Source of the DNA: Candidatus Omnitrophota bacterium
GTDB lineage: Bacteria; Omnitrophota; Koll11; Gygaellales; JAQTUY01
NCBI GenBank assembly: GCA_028707105.1
Contig: JAQTUY010000111.1
Location: 1 to 5,476, forward strand
Reading direction: 5' to 3'
DNA: 5,476 bases
The notes under the pieces were generated by a model that did not search any database, was not told the DNA's origin, and saw only the letters and a program-made list of their open reading frames with translations. Within the stretch, counting starts at the first letter, position 1. The number at the start of each line of letters is the position of its first letter. This document shows, piece after piece, positions 1-5,476 of the stretch. The position numbers were made by a program, and so were the translations under genes.

Positions 1-3000
1 GAAACCCTGTTCTTATCCATGGGGTGATCTCCGATCCTGGCTATATCACCCTTCTTCAGGATCTCCATAAAGTACGCTTCAGTCGGATATTTCGTCCCGA
101 TACCGTCGCCAAGCACTTCATCATGGGTCCCGAAGTAATAAGTGTTCTCTAATGCCTTGGTATAATGCTGCGAATCGATTATCTCCATGGGCATAAAGAG
201 GGGTATGCCGTGCAGGTCCAGGTCCCATCCTTTTCTGGTCCAAAGATTGGGGGCGCTCTTGAACATCTTGCCAAAGGTGAGGGTCTTGAGCACGGTCGGC
301 ATCTTCGGCCCTATCCCGATCCCGGAACGTCCGATAATATACTGCAGATGGCTGCCGGGAACGATATTCTCATTGTTGAAGACAGGCTTTAAAGCGGCTT
401 CTTTTGACCAGCCGGTAGCATCGCAGATGTTGTCAACGGTATTGACCAAAAGCATTGCCCAGGCCTCATTCTTCTGGGCTTCCTTCTTTAAATAATCATA
501 CATTAATTCAGGGTGCTGGGCATCGGGCTTGAACTTAAGGAATCCGCTGGGGATGTCCCTTTTCGTAAAGATCACATCAAAGGCGATATTGGCAACAGGA
601 GCTATCCAGGGCTGAGTGATTACCCCGCTCCAGGCCAAGCCGCCGATTATCGACCTATAACCAAGCGAAGTCTTTAAATATTCGGTATGTTTCTTGGCCC
701 ATTCCAATTCCAACTGATAGAACGCCAAACCATATTCAAGATAAACAACCTCGTTATCCAGATAGTTCTTCCCGGTCCAGATCAGGTTTCCGGTAAGAGG
801 ATCATTGTTTTTAATAGTATCTTCAACAACTATGGTATAATCCCTGCCCTTCAGGGGGATGCTAACTCTCTTGAATGCGCCGGTTTCAGGCTCCAGTTCA
901 TAATGGACTATTCTCTTGCTGTTTAATTCTCCCTTTTCATTTTTCCATTCAAAGAACCAAACCAGATTTCCTTCGGCATCTTCCATCGGCTTGCCGCGGA
1001 CGAGCACCTGGATCATCCTTCCATTGTCATACTCTTTTACTACCTGGGAAGGATTATTCCATCCGTCTTTGGCTACCTCAACCAGCAACGGCCCGCCGGC
1101 CGTATCCAGGGTCTTGCGCAGATCTATCTCGAAATTCCTGGACTTGAATGCCGACTTTTCAAACCCGGCTCTCTCTATTACGGTAGGATTGTTCGGCCTG
1201 TTAATATCCGGAGCGGCAGAGGCTGCGATACCCTTGCCATCAACGGGGAATTCAATGACCAGATCCTTTATTTCTTCTACCGCGGGCTTCTTTACTTCTT
1301 CCTTGGCCTTGGCGGCAGATTTCCTGGCGGCTTTAGCCTCTATCTTCTTAACGACTTTTTTTACATGTTTGATACCTGCGGCCTTATCCTTCTGCTCGCC
1401 GGCTTTACTGATGATCGCCTGAGCCTGTTTCAAGGCGGCCGCGTCCTTTCCGTCCTTTAATTCTTCTACGGCCTTCTGAGCCTTGGTCGCGGCTGTGGCG
1501 TAATCCTGATCAACATAGGCCTTCTTGGCGTCCAACAGGTTCTGGTTGGTATTAGCAGTTGCGTATCCGCCGATGAAGTTTCCACCCGGAGCTGAAACGC
1601 CTTTCTGCAGGTAAGTGTCCTGATCATTGCTCTGGCCGGCGTAAGCGTTAGGAGCCAATAACGCGCCGCCGATGACCGCGATACCTACTACTAAAGCCAC
1701 GGCCACGGCAGGGGTCATCCGGAAGTTAAAAACGCGCCTTGCCTGAGGGGCGATTTTGGAGAGTATATTCTGCTTGATATCGCGTAAAGCGCGGAATTCG
1801 CCTGCCAGATCCGTCAATTCATAGATCTGCTCATTACTGACTTCCTTGCGGCTGTATATCTGGCCGTATATGCTGTCGGTCTGAACCTGAGCCTGAAGCT
1901 GTTTGAATATTAACTCTTCGAGTAGATCAACATCTTTTGAATTCAGCTTATTCAGCAGGCTTATATTCTGCAAGAATCCCTTTAGAATATCCTGATCCCT
2001 GATGCTGTCGATATTCTCTATGGTGACCCTGCCGGTCTTAACCAATAACTTCAGATCATTTTCAAAAAACCTTAAAGCTTCTTCCAGCCTCTCAGCTATA
2101 GTAGTATTGGGGTTGGTTTCGACGAACCTCGCATATTCATCCGAGGAAATATTGAGTATTCTTGATAATTCTTCTTTTACGGATAATTCAATAACCTCAA
2201 GGCCGGCAATAGCGGCATTAACCTTTTTCAGAGTGGCCTTGGCCCTGGAAAGATCATTCTCAAGTTCAACGATATCATTACCAAGCCTTCTGCCCTGGGC
2301 GATAGCCTTGCGGTCGTACAAGATAGAGGCGAGAACGCGTCTCTTTCTACCTTCTAATACTGAAAGTTTGGCAATATAAGAATCGAGCTTGCTTATATTC
2401 TCTTCGTGGCTTAAACGGGGATTAATAACAGCGTTAATTTCATGGCGGACATCATTTACGGAGATATTTTCGGGCAGGATGATGTAAATTACCCCATTTA
2501 CAACGTAGTTGGCAGCGCCGATAGCCGGAGGGCCGCGGATGAAACGCACCCCCGCGGGCAGCTGGCTCATCACATTCTCGGAAATATTATATAAGCCCAT
2601 AACCTTCATGTAATCTATTTCGCCGTACTTAGCAATAATGGCATCGATACCGCCGTGCTGTCCGACCAGTGAATTTACCTCTTCGCGGCTCTTGCCCTCC
2701 GCGCTGGCATCCCTGGGCTGCTTCGCGGTCCATCCAGCCAAGAGCTCATTTTCCACCTTTTCTATAAGCCCTAAATATTCGCCGTTATTATTGATAGCAT
2801 TTTCCATATCGCTAATAAGCGCCGCGGCTTTTGCGGCTAATTCCTCGGGCGCGACCAATTCCGCGCCGATTTCAACATTATTAGCGAGTTTATTCACGTA
2901 ATACTTGGTCTGCCTGACCATGGCAAAAGGAACGGCAACGCTTAAATTGACCCCGGGGATCGACCTAGCCATATTGACAACCAGGACCAGCATATCGGGC

Positions 3001-5476
3001 GTCTTGGCGAAAGAACCACAGATACACACCGGCACGTTATAAGCAGCGGCTACCCTGACTATATACATAATACGGCGGGATACTGAAGGAGCGACGCCGC
3101 TAAGCTTGCTTCCGGCAGAAGCGTCATCACGGTTGACATCCAACACTGCCTTTGTTAGATCGTTAGTCCCGATATTGATCCGGATATTGATCTTATAATC
3201 TCTGGCTAATTTAGCGGCTGTCTCCAGCATTTCCTTGATGTTATCCACCGCAGAGATATTCTCTATCATAAGACTTACACAAAAATCTTTGATGTTCGCT
3301 ACACTGCTGGCTTCCTTGAGCAGTTCAAACACATACTCCACATCAGAGACTGTAGAGAGCATCGGGAATAACGCGGCCACATTAGATTTCTCGGCATAAG
3401 CGCGAACGATAGCCTTAAGCTGCAGTAATACGATCTTTCTGCCTTCGGGAGTCCTGTAAAAATTGAATCCGGTATTGGCATCGTCATAGGGAAGGTCGGA
3501 CCCAGCCTTGATCTTCTTATCCGCCTGCCTATCCAAAGTCCTGACTACGACCATTTTCCTTGATGCGGCTCCCGCCATCCTGGCGAAGAACTGCTTTAAG
3601 TCTTTCTCTGAAGGCAGCGTCTCGCCCTGCATGATCTCGGAAAATTCAGAACGCACCAGGCCGACGTATGAGGCGTCTTTAATATCACCCATGCCCCTGC
3701 CGTCTCCCTCTATTTCAAAAATGTCGTCCGCCGCCATAGCGATATCGATCTCGCTCTTATTAGCAAGCACCACTTTGGAAGATAACCCTTGAGCTCCGAA
3801 TAACTTTTGACGGGCAATAGCGCCTATCATGCGGGCCATTACAGAACCTACTTCTTCCCTGGTAGGATTATGAATAACAACGTTGATCAATGCTTCCCCG
3901 CCCATGGCTTCCTGGGGTATAACCGCTATAGTATCACCCTGCTTGATATTCTTTAAATATTCCGTAGGTACGCCAAAGACGACCGGCGCGCCGTAATTAC
4001 TGAATTCCTCGCTGACATGGCCAATGGCTGTGCCGTAATTTGATACTCCGCCTATAACGTTAAAACGATGCATCAGGTCTTTTAACTGATCCGGATCGAT
4101 ACAGCCGAGTATAACCAGAATAACCGGCGCGCCGTCGCCGAGCGGAAGCTCATCACTCACAAATTCCCGGTCTATTTCCACCAGCAGCCAAGAGACAAAT
4201 TTTTCAGCCGCTAAAAGCTCGGAGCTGGTCGGATCATCCTCATTAGCCCATAAATTCATCGCTTTCCACATCGCGAAGCCAACCTGGCAATTATGCTCAA
4301 GTATGAATCCCCTGGTAATCGTGTTGATCCTCTCCCATCCTAAAGGAACGTCCATCCTCGCGCTTACTTTGTTAAAAGCTAACTCCAGCCTGGAGACCTC
4401 ATCTTCCTGTATTTTCTTCTTGATCTCGGCAGATGCCGCCCTGATGCCTAAGTAACGGCGATGGCGCAGGACCTCCATCATTTTGACCGCGATAACATAT
4501 AACTCCATCTGGGCAACGCCGCTTGCTTTCTGGATTTTAGGGTCGATATATCCGCCGGCCAATAATTCAGCCGGAATACAGCGCTTGAATCCCTGCATCG
4601 TTTTATATAACGTGGAAGCAGCGGTAAATTTGGGGCCGCTCTTGGAAGTCAGTTTACCTTCTATCTCTGCGGCTATCTGGCGGATCAAGACTTTAGTCAC
4701 CGCTATCGTCGAAGAATTACCATGGATCTGAGATAACATCCAGTTCACGGCATTCCTTAATTCCGCCACTTCATGAGCCACTTCCTCTTCCGTGATCATA
4801 AACCTGCTTTCGTATATCTTTAATAGATTTTCCTGCTCTTCTTTGCTGATCTTATTCTCCTGGCTTAAGATATGCATCCAGAACATGCAGTTGTAAAGCT
4901 TGCCCTGATACGGCTTTTCGGCGGAGGCAATGATCATATCCAAAGCCTGCCTTAATTTCTGATCGGAGACTATTTCTTCTTTCTTGGCTAACTCCGCCCA
5001 GATAGCGATGTCGGCGCGTAAATTCATCTGGGCTTTCTTATCGCCCTGTCTGCCAAAACGGGCCCAGACTTCAAATACGTCGTTATGGGCCCTGACTACC
5101 ACAGCCCTGCCCATAACCGCGCCTAAGATATTATTATTGCTGGTACCTTTGGCCTTTCTGATATCAGGAGTAGATAATGTCCCGAGGAATAATCCGCAGG
5201 CGGCAAGAGAAGCAACTGAAGAATTGTTATTTAAGAAGGAATAAAGTACGGCGGCAGCTACTAATCCGATCCAGGCCGGAGGAGCTTGCCCGTGGATAAC
5301 GGTCTCGAATATCTTGCGGATCTGGCTCTGGGAAGCCTCTAAGTCTATGTAAGAAGTATTGTCTTTGGTGTATTTAATGACTATATTGCCGCCTAAAGTC
5401 CTTAAGTATCTGGCTGTGACGGCGATCCTATTCACATTATTAGTAATACGCCTGGCATATTCTTCATTGGCCACAT
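1..5476 (-). CDS. Internal part of a giant multidomain protein with an Enzyme I-like module (partial at both ends)
   Basis: One minus-strand frame is open from base 5474 to base 3, giving 1,824 codons without a stop; both ends of the gene lie outside the window. The translation reads as ordinary protein throughout, and the frame at the two edges agrees, so no net frameshift is present. Domain order is a hydrophobic pair (68-102), helical region (103-316), Enzyme I-like module (317-870), coiled coil (1024-1107), internal signal or anchor (1253-1279), Ala/Lys-rich linker (1313-1403) and an unrecognised C-terminal part. Bacterial Enzyme I is normally a free cytosolic protein of about 575 residues, so its place inside a chain over three times longer is unusual. 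The first codon, GTG at 5474, cannot be judged as a start because nothing upstream is visible. I infer a membrane-tethered protein with cytoplasmic and exported parts; its overall function is unknown. Confidence 0.96.
3..566 (-). other. C-terminal visible region, unrecognised mixed domain (continues beyond the window)
   Basis: Residues 1637-1824 contain a helical stretch (ELMYDYLKKEAQKNEAWAML), a cysteine in VDNICDATGW, a glycine-rich turn IIGRSGIGIGPKM (GRSGIGIGP spans 1715-1723), and an aromatic and His-bearing stretch (NLWTRKGWDLDLHGIPLF, then YYFGTHDEVLGDGIGTKYP). It reads like a compact folded domain, not a linker, but I cannot name a family. The frame is still open at the window edge, so the gene continues past base 1. 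Confidence 0.4.
567..656 (-). other. Moderately hydrophobic Gly/Trp-containing segment
   Basis: Residues 1607-1636 (RSIIGGLAWSGVITQPWIAP, then VANIAFDVIF) are apolar for 30 residues but contain Gln, Asn, Asp and two Pro. That argues against a plain transmembrane helix. It could be a buried helical hairpin in the exported domain, a membrane-associated segment or, less likely, a second crossing that would return the chain to the cytoplasm. Confidence 0.3.
675..1265 (-). other. Beta-rich region of unknown function, predicted extracytoplasmic
   Basis: Residues 1404-1600 switch to alternating polar and apolar residues with many aromatic side chains and Gly/Asn turns. Examples are GGPLLVEVAKDGWNNPS, MIQVLVRGKPMEDAEGNLVW, RDYTIVVEDTIKNNDPLTGN and NEVVYLEYGLAFYQLELEW. 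This looks like a beta-sandwich or similar fold of the kind common in cell-surface proteins. No catalytic signature or named repeat is recognised. A structural or ligand-binding role on the exported side fits the topology but is not shown. Confidence 0.45.
1266..1538 (-). other. Ala/Lys-rich low-complexity linker with a TPR-like helix pair
   Basis: Residues 1313-1403 are dominated by Ala, Lys, Glu and Gln. The first part (LLDAKKAYVDQDYATAATKA, followed by QKAVEEL) resembles a single tetratricopeptide-like helix pair. The second part (1368-1397) is extremely basic, with 11 lysines in 30 residues plus Arg and His (such as VKKVVKKIEAKAARKSAAKA), much like histone H1 tails. It follows soon after the predicted membrane crossing, so it would lie on the exported side and could contact cell-wall polymers or anionic surfaces; that role is inference. 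It may equally be a flexible spacer. Confidence 0.6.
1632..1739 (-). other. Internal signal-peptide-like or signal-anchor segment
   Basis: Residues 1246-1281 have the three parts of a secretory signal in the middle of the chain. They are a basic lead (RRVFNFR), a long apolar core (from M1253 through AVAVALVVGIAVIGGALLA) and a helix-breaking end with NAYA followed by GQ. The small residues at -3 and -1 (A1277 and A1279) fit a signal peptidase I site. By the positive-inside rule, residues before it would be cytoplasmic and those after it exported. Whether it is cleaved or remains as an anchor cannot be told. A separate gene starting at the ATG for M1253 (1718-1716) is unlikely, because the frame is open through it and no good Shine-Dalgarno sequence sits at the usual distance. 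Confidence 0.75.
1740..2153 (-). other. Helical region between the coiled coil and the membrane segment
   Basis: Residues 1108-1245 look like a string of amphipathic helices with short breaks, for example IAERLEEALRFFENDLKLLV, then LLNKLNSKDVDLLEELIFKQ, then a last helix around residues 1220-1245. I recognise no family motif. Position suggests a cytoplasmic neck or stalk that connects the Enzyme I-like module to the membrane crossing. Basic residues close to its end (K, R1246, R1247) sit right before the hydrophobic stretch, as expected for a cytoplasmic flank. Confidence 0.4.
2154..2405 (-). other. Probable coiled coil
   Basis: Residues about 1024-1107 are strongly charged and helical, with Leu, Ile and Val recurring at roughly heptad spacing (for example SKLDSYIAKLSVLEG and NDIVELENDLSRAKATLKK). 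Gly and Pro are sparse and no strand-forming stretches are visible. The likely role is a rod or oligomerisation element between the Enzyme I-like part and the membrane segment. The call is by eye. Confidence 0.55.
2406..2864 (-). other. Linker region after the barrel with an HE...SHEE pattern, unknown function
   Basis: Residues 871-1023 begin with an Ala-rich helical stretch (EELAAKAAALISDME). A segment with several predicted strands follows (GVRFIRGPPAIGAA, then YVVNGVIYIILPE), and then VRHEINAVINPRLSHEE with H1011, E1012 and H1023. A strand followed by an HE-bearing helix is seen in zinc-binding peptidase folds, but the full HExxH signature is absent, so this is at most a relict or chance likeness. 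The region lies beyond the point where Enzyme I normally ends, so it is not part of that family. Confidence 0.35.
2880..3782 (-). other. PEP-binding TIM barrel (PEP-utilizing enzyme C-terminal domain)
   Basis: Residues about 565-865 match the C-terminal barrel of Enzyme I. In order one sees ANKSEIDIA at the first strand, YVGLVRSEF (R608; family GLYRTEF), VVVRTLDRQADK (R645, D648, K653; family VRTMDIGGDK), LFPM, LMIEN (E738; family MVETP), INIGTNDLTKAVLDVNR (N771, D772, R782; family SIGTNDLTQYTLAVDR), VAPSV (family MSPSV) and VCICGSFA (C819; family GMCGELA). In Enzyme I these arginines and acidic residues bind PEP and magnesium, and the cysteine protonates the enolpyruvate. Nearly all are kept, which argues for a working PEP site. 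One visible change is the glutamate two after the cysteine (E504 in E. coli), which is S821. Confidence 0.88.
3983..4058 (-). other. Candidate phosphohistidine site (H486) in a degenerate swivel-domain loop
   Basis: The CAT codon at 4019-4017 encodes H486. Enzyme I has a sequence of the form VLGFxTDAGGRTSH, then TAIMARSLGIPAVVG. Without any gap, the window reads VIGGVSNYGTAIGH, then VSEEFSNYGAPVVFG. The histidine, the leading V-I/L-G and the trailing G-x-P-x-V-x-G all line up. The residues around the histidine have changed: GGRTSH became GTAIGH, and the arginine six residues after it (E. coli R195) is S492. The phosphate-accepting histidine therefore seems kept, but its supporting residues are lost. 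Reduced or altered phosphotransfer is an inference. Confidence 0.65.
4527..5168 (-). other. All-helical region of unknown function before the Enzyme I-like module
   Basis: Residues 103-316 are rich in Ala, Glu, Lys, Leu and Ile, with amphipathic spacing that suggests many helices and few strands. Examples are the stretches around KKAQMNLRADIAIWAELAKK and TEEEVAHEVAELRNAVNWM. No ATP-grasp (ATP-binding) motifs are visible here. This matters because PEP synthase and pyruvate phosphate dikinase, the other families with a phosphohistidine plus PEP-binding barrel, carry an ATP-grasp domain in this position. Its absence favours Enzyme I as the closest relative of the following module. I do not recognise the region itself; it may be a helical scaffold or a partner-binding part. 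Confidence 0.5.
5169..5280 (-). other. Two short hydrophobic segments, possible membrane hairpin
   Basis: Residues about 66-102 hold two apolar stretches, WIGLVAAAVLYSFL (68-81) and VASLAACGLFLGTLS (about 87-101), separated by a short polar NNNSS turn. Each is only about 14-15 residues, short for a bilayer-spanning helix, so this could be a re-entrant hairpin or the buried core of a globular domain. If it is a true hairpin, both flanks lie on the same side of the membrane, which agrees with a cytoplasmic Enzyme I-like module downstream. Residues 1-65 before it form a small mixed alpha/beta stretch that I do not recognise. Confidence 0.4.

Follow-up and report, generated by a model that had tools for sequence, protein, structure and literature searches.

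An Enzyme I-like module inside giant open reading frames of Omnitrophota

PtsP (EI-Ntr), a GAF-EI protein, is a second, regulatory Enzyme I (EI) that stands beside the ordinary one of the phosphotransferase system (PTS). In viral polyproteins a single ORF encodes many enzymes, with short repeated motifs at their borders. Among giant genes, SecA-like domains have reportedly been described in the West-Roberts preprint. The multiphosphoryl transfer proteins (MTPs) treated in the available text of PMC2405797 are ordered IIA-HPr-EI or HPr-EI. Giant ORFs of Omnitrophota, including one of 39,678 aa in Ca. Velamenicoccus, are described by Seymour et al. (2023; PMC10066038), whose main text reports few annotated domains in them, suggests a role in adhesion, and contains neither "phosphotransferase" nor "polyprotein". 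Such ORFs are already known; we found no report of an EI within them in the available text of PMC10066038, PMC12057145 and PMC11573180 or in the literature on Omnitrophota giant proteins, giant genes, polyproteins and the PTS, and the main giant-gene preprint may mention one. For these ORFs, an EI module that recurs with its catalytic residues intact would supply a testable biochemical activity: PEP-dependent phosphorylation.

An Enzyme I-like unit within a long open frame

The DNA analysed here, 5,476 nucleotides that we call the window, is an entire 5,476-base contig according to the database record of the protein. Its EI is not a free soluble protein of about 575 aa but part of a frame that spans at least 1,824 codons (Table 1), and both in sequence and in fold the unit matches EI above all else. 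The sequence-only reading had proposed a near-complete EI inside a larger protein, and the open frame of 1,824 codons, the PF02896 match and the fold and sequence matches bear this out; the PEP-site residues that it named, R608, R645, E738, N771/D772, R782 and C819, are all present in our alignments, as is H486. The E. coli EI residue numbers in the table are the standard ones and are linked to the window through these alignments. For the three EI families to which that reading pointed, the outcome was divided: the PEP-binding TIM barrel (PF02896) is matched in the window, but the Pfam profiles of the N-terminal HPr-binding domain (PF05524) and the mobile domain (PF00391) gave no match there at E <= 1. 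In the structure model a full EI aligns with residues 243-796, but the mobile domain there has a pLDDT below 50. The NCBIfam family PTS_I_fam scores 79.8 bits on the window, missing its cut-off of 341.7; the best NCBIfam match is PRK11061, and scores are far under the EI equivalog cut-offs. The helical N-terminal part of the unit is larger than that of ordinary EI, and no GAF domain was found in the window.

Table 1. Features of the window; residue numbers refer to the protein encoded by its open frame
Feature	Coordinates	Strand	Remarks
Single open frame, 1,824 codons	3..5474	(-)	Open at both contig ends; by its relatives, a fragment of a larger ORF
Upstream flank of the EI unit, residues 1-105	5160..5474	(-)	
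Enzyme I-like unit, residues ~106-932	2679..5159	(-)	Homology limits against G001, G002 and P0004
H486, equivalent of the EI phospho-acceptor His (E. coli H189)	4017..4019	(-)	Alignment
PEP-utilizers_C (PEP-binding TIM barrel), residues 572-835	2970..3761	(-)	
R608 (E. coli R296)	3651..3653	(-)	Alignment
R645 (E. coli R332)	3540..3542	(-)	Alignment
E738 (E. coli E431, Mg ligand)	3261..3263	(-)	Alignment
N771-D772 (E. coli N454-D455)	3159..3164	(-)	Alignment
R782 (E. coli R465)	3129..3131	(-)	Alignment
C819 (E. coli C502, general acid)	3018..3020	(-)	Alignment
Residues 933-1255	1710..2678	(-)	Up to 1126 common to G001; 922-1091 common to G191
Residues 1256-1274, sole TM-like segment	1653..1709	(-)	Hydropathy 2.68
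Residues 1280-1824	3..1637	(-)	Without family or relative found

The flanks of the unit are less easily placed. Residues 1-105 have no relative among the giant frames compared (best E 0.55); within them, residues ~59-105 are mildly hydrophobic, under the TM threshold used, and QAPPA stands at 63-67. With residues 935-1824 as query, the only match was the protein itself, and the whole window protein found no relative among the genome contigs; alignment A1 run against these contigs did find relatives, at 12 loci, 8 of them weak matches in other phyla. By far the closest relatives of the window protein are long proteins, most of them labelled Candidatus Omnitrophica at source: P0003 (44% identity, in the part searched), P0004 (44% over 90%) and P0005 (48% over 41%), followed by P0006-P0008 at 25-26%. 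The closest named relatives are Candidatus Omnitrophota records, which places the origin of the window in Omnitrophota by similarity only. The window contig, of 5.5 kb, is open at both ends, related frames fill contigs of 8.4 kb (genome G001) and 19.3 kb (G002), and that of G004 takes up nearly all of a 20.8-kb contig. Judged by these relatives, the window is probably a fragment of a giant Omnitrophota ORF and not a compact membrane-tethered protein; what was found in it would be part of something larger. A role in anti-phage defence was considered and set aside, PADLOC giving no match.

Conservation, distribution and PTS partners of the module

We aligned 26 EI-like modules (the window, 20 from long frames of other genomes and P0004-P0008) with five ordinary EIs. 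The active-site His is conserved in all 24 modules whose sequence reaches that site (all but G338 and P0005), the R296 equivalent in 25 of the 25 that cover that position, and the equivalents of R332, E431, N454, D455 and C502 in 26 of 26; the R465 equivalent is kept in 25 of 26, the exception being G169, with an N there that is possibly misaligned. A FastTree phylogeny of 48 sequences, with local support values, joins the 26 modules, the sequence L034 (a frame of 915-932 aa) and the stand-alone EIs L045 and L057 (575-605 aa) in a clade of 29 with support 1.0, outside which falls the ordinary ptsI set (13 sequences, support 1.0). The node that excludes the stand-alone L045 and L057 has a support of only 0.40.

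Of 384 genomes from the G002 phylum that were searched with a profile of the EI-like unit, 370 gave a match, most of the matches listed being in frames of ordinary length (<1,000 aa). Among the matches listed, at least 21 genomes have one in a frame of 1,521-35,009 aa, the longest being those of G108 (35,009 aa), G144 (25,048), G059 (23,032), G159 (22,400) and G067 (19,582). The frame sequences analysed are those of 19 of the 21 genomes plus G001, with G153 and G310 represented by their profile matches and G045 covered over the first 20 kb of 21,030. In G108 (contig C9, L069-L076) both ends of the 35,009-codon frame lie inside a contig of 169,683 bases (joined coordinates 23543-128569, minus strand); many other EI-bearing long frames run off the contig end. 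The G108 frame approaches the length of the Velamenicoccus protein (39,678 aa; PMC10066038), and in G144 (C111, L097-L100) a single open frame spans the entire contig of 75,147 bases, which includes some stretches of unknown bases.

The company that EI keeps in these frames is varied. The G002 frame (6,441 aa, on a contig open at both ends) has EI, PAS, GGDEF, TPR, response regulator, HPr, UPF0146, LOG-like and alanine dehydrogenase N-terminal domains, with EI alone detected in its first 3,240 aa. That of G059, scanned over residues 1-20096, has guanylate-kinase-like, HATPase, EI, amylo-1,6-glucosidase/amylase, GGDEF, Kdo-transferase, HAD, GNAT, LOG, M50 peptidase, PPDK_N and other domains, some of these matches being under the Pfam cut-off. 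At E <= 0.001 the smaller frames of G169, G271 and G189 yielded only parts of EI, plus HPr in G169 and G271; in all three, 1,500-2,000 aa without annotation lie ahead of EI. The order of modules is shuffled: the glucosidase module stands before EI in G004 but after it in G059. Residues 20-810 of G169 and 27-849 of G189, both EI-HPr frames, have in common an N-terminal region of ~850 aa (38% identity) without a Pfam family. In G002, 128 aa within residues 619-758 match P0004 residues 96-223 at 79%; this GT9 glycosyltransferase runs to ~485 in P0004, and the G002 copy stops just ahead of the SSSPV that precedes the EI unit, as if modules might decay in place.

In each of the genomes G001-G004, an ordinary EI and an ordinary HPr occur along with an EIIA_2 gene on one contig, so that the giant-frame EI there is a second, divergent one; HPr kinase and EIIA-man were not found in these four. 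HPr was sought in 23 genomes picked for having an EI-like match in a long frame. In seven (G002, G169, G191, G153, G324, G271 and G189) the genome search found it by Pfam, over cut-off, in the EI frame itself (frames of 1,945-8,346 aa), C-terminal to EI in 7/7; in 16 of the 23 the EI frame is without HPr, and an ordinary HPr is present in 22 (not G338). G310 has an HPr match in a 1,904-aa frame on a different contig from its EI match. On the translated frames, Pfam places HPr over cut-off in G169, G324, G191 and G002 and just below it in G271 (22.4 vs 23), and finds none at E <= 0.001 in G189. A home-made HPr profile gave eight alignments, weak in G045 and G235, with the active-site His in 8/8. 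Neither Pfam nor this profile found an HPr-like domain in the window, itself a fragment; the frames of G001 and G004 that bear EI gave none either. In G001, the nearest relative, an EIIA_2 (C59, L137; 5554-5937, minus strand) lies behind what by eye is a transporter-like stretch in a 6,716-aa frame, and is the only EIIA_2 match in a frame above 650 aa among the 23 genomes. Related genomes have frames of ~575-640 aa with EIIA_2.

An EI in the giants, joined in several species by HPr within one chain, hints at a working phosphate relay. The giant Omnitrophota ORFs house divergent EI modules that form a clade and retain their catalytic residues, at times with HPr in the chain, and the most likely function of these modules would be PEP-dependent phosphotransfer to an HPr-like acceptor. 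For the window we consider it probable that the unit is an active, divergent EI paralogue in a giant multi-module ORF. PEP would bind in the TIM barrel of the unit, its phosphoryl group would pass to H486 on the swivelling domain, and from H486 it would go to an HPr-like acceptor, which could belong to the giant chain itself (the arrangement in some relatives) or act in trans; the giant protein would thereby gain a phosphorylation input responsive to PEP/pyruvate. Here we infer catalysis, the acceptor in the window's species and the regulatory use, next to what was observed directly: the anatomy, the conserved active-site residues, the distribution, and the in-frame HPr and separate ordinary ptsI of the relatives. 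Against an active EI speak the lack of HPr in the window and in 16 of the 23 EI frames, the absence of an HPr match in the EI frames of G001 and G004, the silence of the mobile and N-terminal Pfam profiles, the low pLDDT (<50) of the modelled mobile domain, and the support of only 0.40 for a module-only clade.

Border motifs and alternative readings

In two of the giant frames, a short motif recurs many times. The 6,441-aa frame of G002 contains 22 SSP[VIL], vs one in 63,868 aa of ordinary G002 ORFs (>=100 aa, non-overlapping, from 20 other stretches of the same genome). The G059 frame has 76 SSP, where 200 shuffles gave a mean of 3.9 and a maximum of 12, and 41 [LIVF]SSPA vs a shuffle mean of 0.11; the adjoining ordinary ORFs have 0 SSP in 17 ORFs and 7,162 aa, a small control in which ~1 would be expected. 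None of 62 SSP[AVILMSF] in G059 residues 1-20096 (9.6 expected) and none of 27 in G002 (4.9 expected) falls within a Pfam domain; for this count, overlapping family matches were manually thinned so that each place had a single one, and two weak matches were dropped. None lies within blocks common to other giants, trimmed by 25 aa per block end (11.4 expected in G059, 6.4 in G002). Block limits lie within 40 aa of a motif at 7/11 starts and 6/11 ends in G059 (chance 0.24 per end) and at 4/5 starts and 3/5 ends in G002 (chance 0.28 per end). The EI unit of G002 sits between two SSSPV motifs, its block 742-1605 coinciding with motifs at 758 and 1605, and P0004 has SSSPV before and after EI. Synonymous codons of the motif vary (39 distinct 12-mers among 52 in G059, and G002 varies too), which indicates selection on the protein level and rules out a DNA-level element in these two genomes; such an element may exist in G067, in which several motif copies are nearly identical in DNA.

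Elsewhere the repeats are weaker and, in G067 and G191, of quite another sequence: MSPE in G067 (C1; FESAMSPEA-like, 5-6 copies), GCFFG in G191 (C13; GCFFGLP-like, 6 copies), 12 SSP[VIL] in the 25,048 aa of G144, and SSP in the database fragments P0004 (3), P0006 (6), P0007 (3) and P0008 (2). No clear border motif was found in the other frames, the window included. QAPPA was rejected as a border motif of the window: it occurs there once, its two copies in the G001 C17 frame belong to a repeated stretch, and APP is no more than mildly common in the frames of G001. In the G059 frame (C6, L114-L118), [hydrophobic]SSPA recurs at domain-sized spacing, with D/E somewhat common at positions 4, 5 and 7 ahead of it; this motif could be a cleavage site or a linker. 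Two weak M50-type (site-2) protease matches, under the Pfam cut-off, lie inside the same frame at ~14935-15053 and 17197-17351 and are possible candidates for processing in cis.

These motifs bear directly on whether the giants are single machines or polyproteins, the key point being whether the chain stays whole or is cut. We tentatively entertain the possibility that the giant ORFs are polyproteins, cut by a protease at short, lineage-specific border motifs, with the EI unit released as a separate, soluble second EI. The motif excess in G002 and G059, the avoidance of Pfam domains and common blocks with clustering near block ends, and the protein-level selection seen in the codons would all fit, as would the modules that span nearly the whole profile of an ordinary enzyme (GGDEF, LOG, HAD, PPDK_N, amylo-1,6-glucosidase and the AlaDH N-domain); no extra Met follows the motif. 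However, a conserved flexible linker would fit the motifs equally well, cleavage is a prediction, the motif is clear in only 2 of 21 frames (G002 and G059) and was not found in the window, and the ordinary-ORF control of G059 is small. TM-like stretches follow 4/76 and 2/27 motifs vs random rates of 0.044 and 0.058, which is no clear enrichment. A bolder version, which we hold to be a little more doubtful still, is that Omnitrophota may encode cellular polyproteins of tens of thousands of residues, comprising dozens of enzymes and signal proteins and an EI-HPr-EIIA relay, with modules shuffled between species and processed at lineage-specific motifs, the EI-HPr relay steering the set by PEP supply. 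We know of no described form of gene expression in cells that uses polyproteins on such a scale.

The remaining alternatives appear weaker than that of an active EI paralogue. A pseudoenzyme that retains the EI fold as a scaffold or PEP sensor without phosphotransfer would be compatible with the high divergence of the modules and with scores so far below the EI equivalog cut-offs, but the 17 long-frame modules outside the close group (G001, G002 and G004) share only 23-31% identity with the window in the best local match, and loss of function is not expected to produce a conserved active-site pattern across modules so divergent; with the His and catalytic residues kept over 26 modules and one departure at R465, we judge it improbable. 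The sequence-only reading suggested that a membrane-tethered protein could serve here for PEP-dependent signalling or phosphotransfer coupled to the cell surface, and there is indeed one TM-like segment downstream of the window EI unit, with TM-like segments at 0.2-3.2 per 1000 aa across the 21 frames. Yet we found no support for this coupling to the surface: the sole segment of the window is directly followed by PNAYA-G (1275-1280), by eye a signal-peptidase-like site, and could be an internal Sec signal peptide of the next module; the frames of G002 and G059 are poor in TM-like segments (2 and 9) and contain many enzyme families that in other settings reside in the cytosol; and PEP and HPr are cytosolic. 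We regard a surface device as unlikely. Internal signal-like stretches after linkers can be picked out by eye in G001 (QAPPAKG...ARAFA) and G002 (TRRHFLKFG, Tat-like), and signal peptides after motifs, seen in such examples only, show no clear enrichment. An assembly or frame artefact, such as a chimeric contig, might be suspected of a lone 5.5-kb contig open at both ends, but it is hardly credible when separate MAGs have the same embedding, when the 35,009-codon frame of G108 is closed at both ends within its contig, and when in P0004, which comes from another source, EI follows the glycosyltransferase-type sequence that also precedes it in G002 (79% over 128 aa), with SSSPV on both sides of EI.

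Relation to known systems

With ordinary PTS Enzyme I (ptsI; PF02896/PF05524/PF00391) the window unit has in common the PEP-binding barrel and its fold, the phospho-His and all catalytic residues; it differs in its embedding in a long frame, its larger helical N-terminal part and its sub-cut-off scores, and the modules form a clade apart from ptsI of the same phylum. PtsP is similar in being a second EI next to an ordinary one, and PRK11061 is the best NCBIfam match of the window, but no GAF was found in the window and the context here is giant. Viral polyproteins resemble the giant frames in having many enzymes in one ORF with repeated border motifs; the giants, unlike them, are cellular, and their processing is a prediction made here. 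In the fusion of EI and HPr in relatives of the window, and in the EIIA_2 of a G001 giant frame on another contig, there is a likeness to multiphosphoryl transfer proteins (FruB/MTP, DhaM-type), although HPr precedes EI in the MTPs covered by the available text of PMC2405797 and is C-terminal to EI in the giant frames (7/7). With the giant Omnitrophota ORFs in the main text of PMC10066038 these frames share the phylum, a length above 20 kb in the longer ones and, in many, TM segments.
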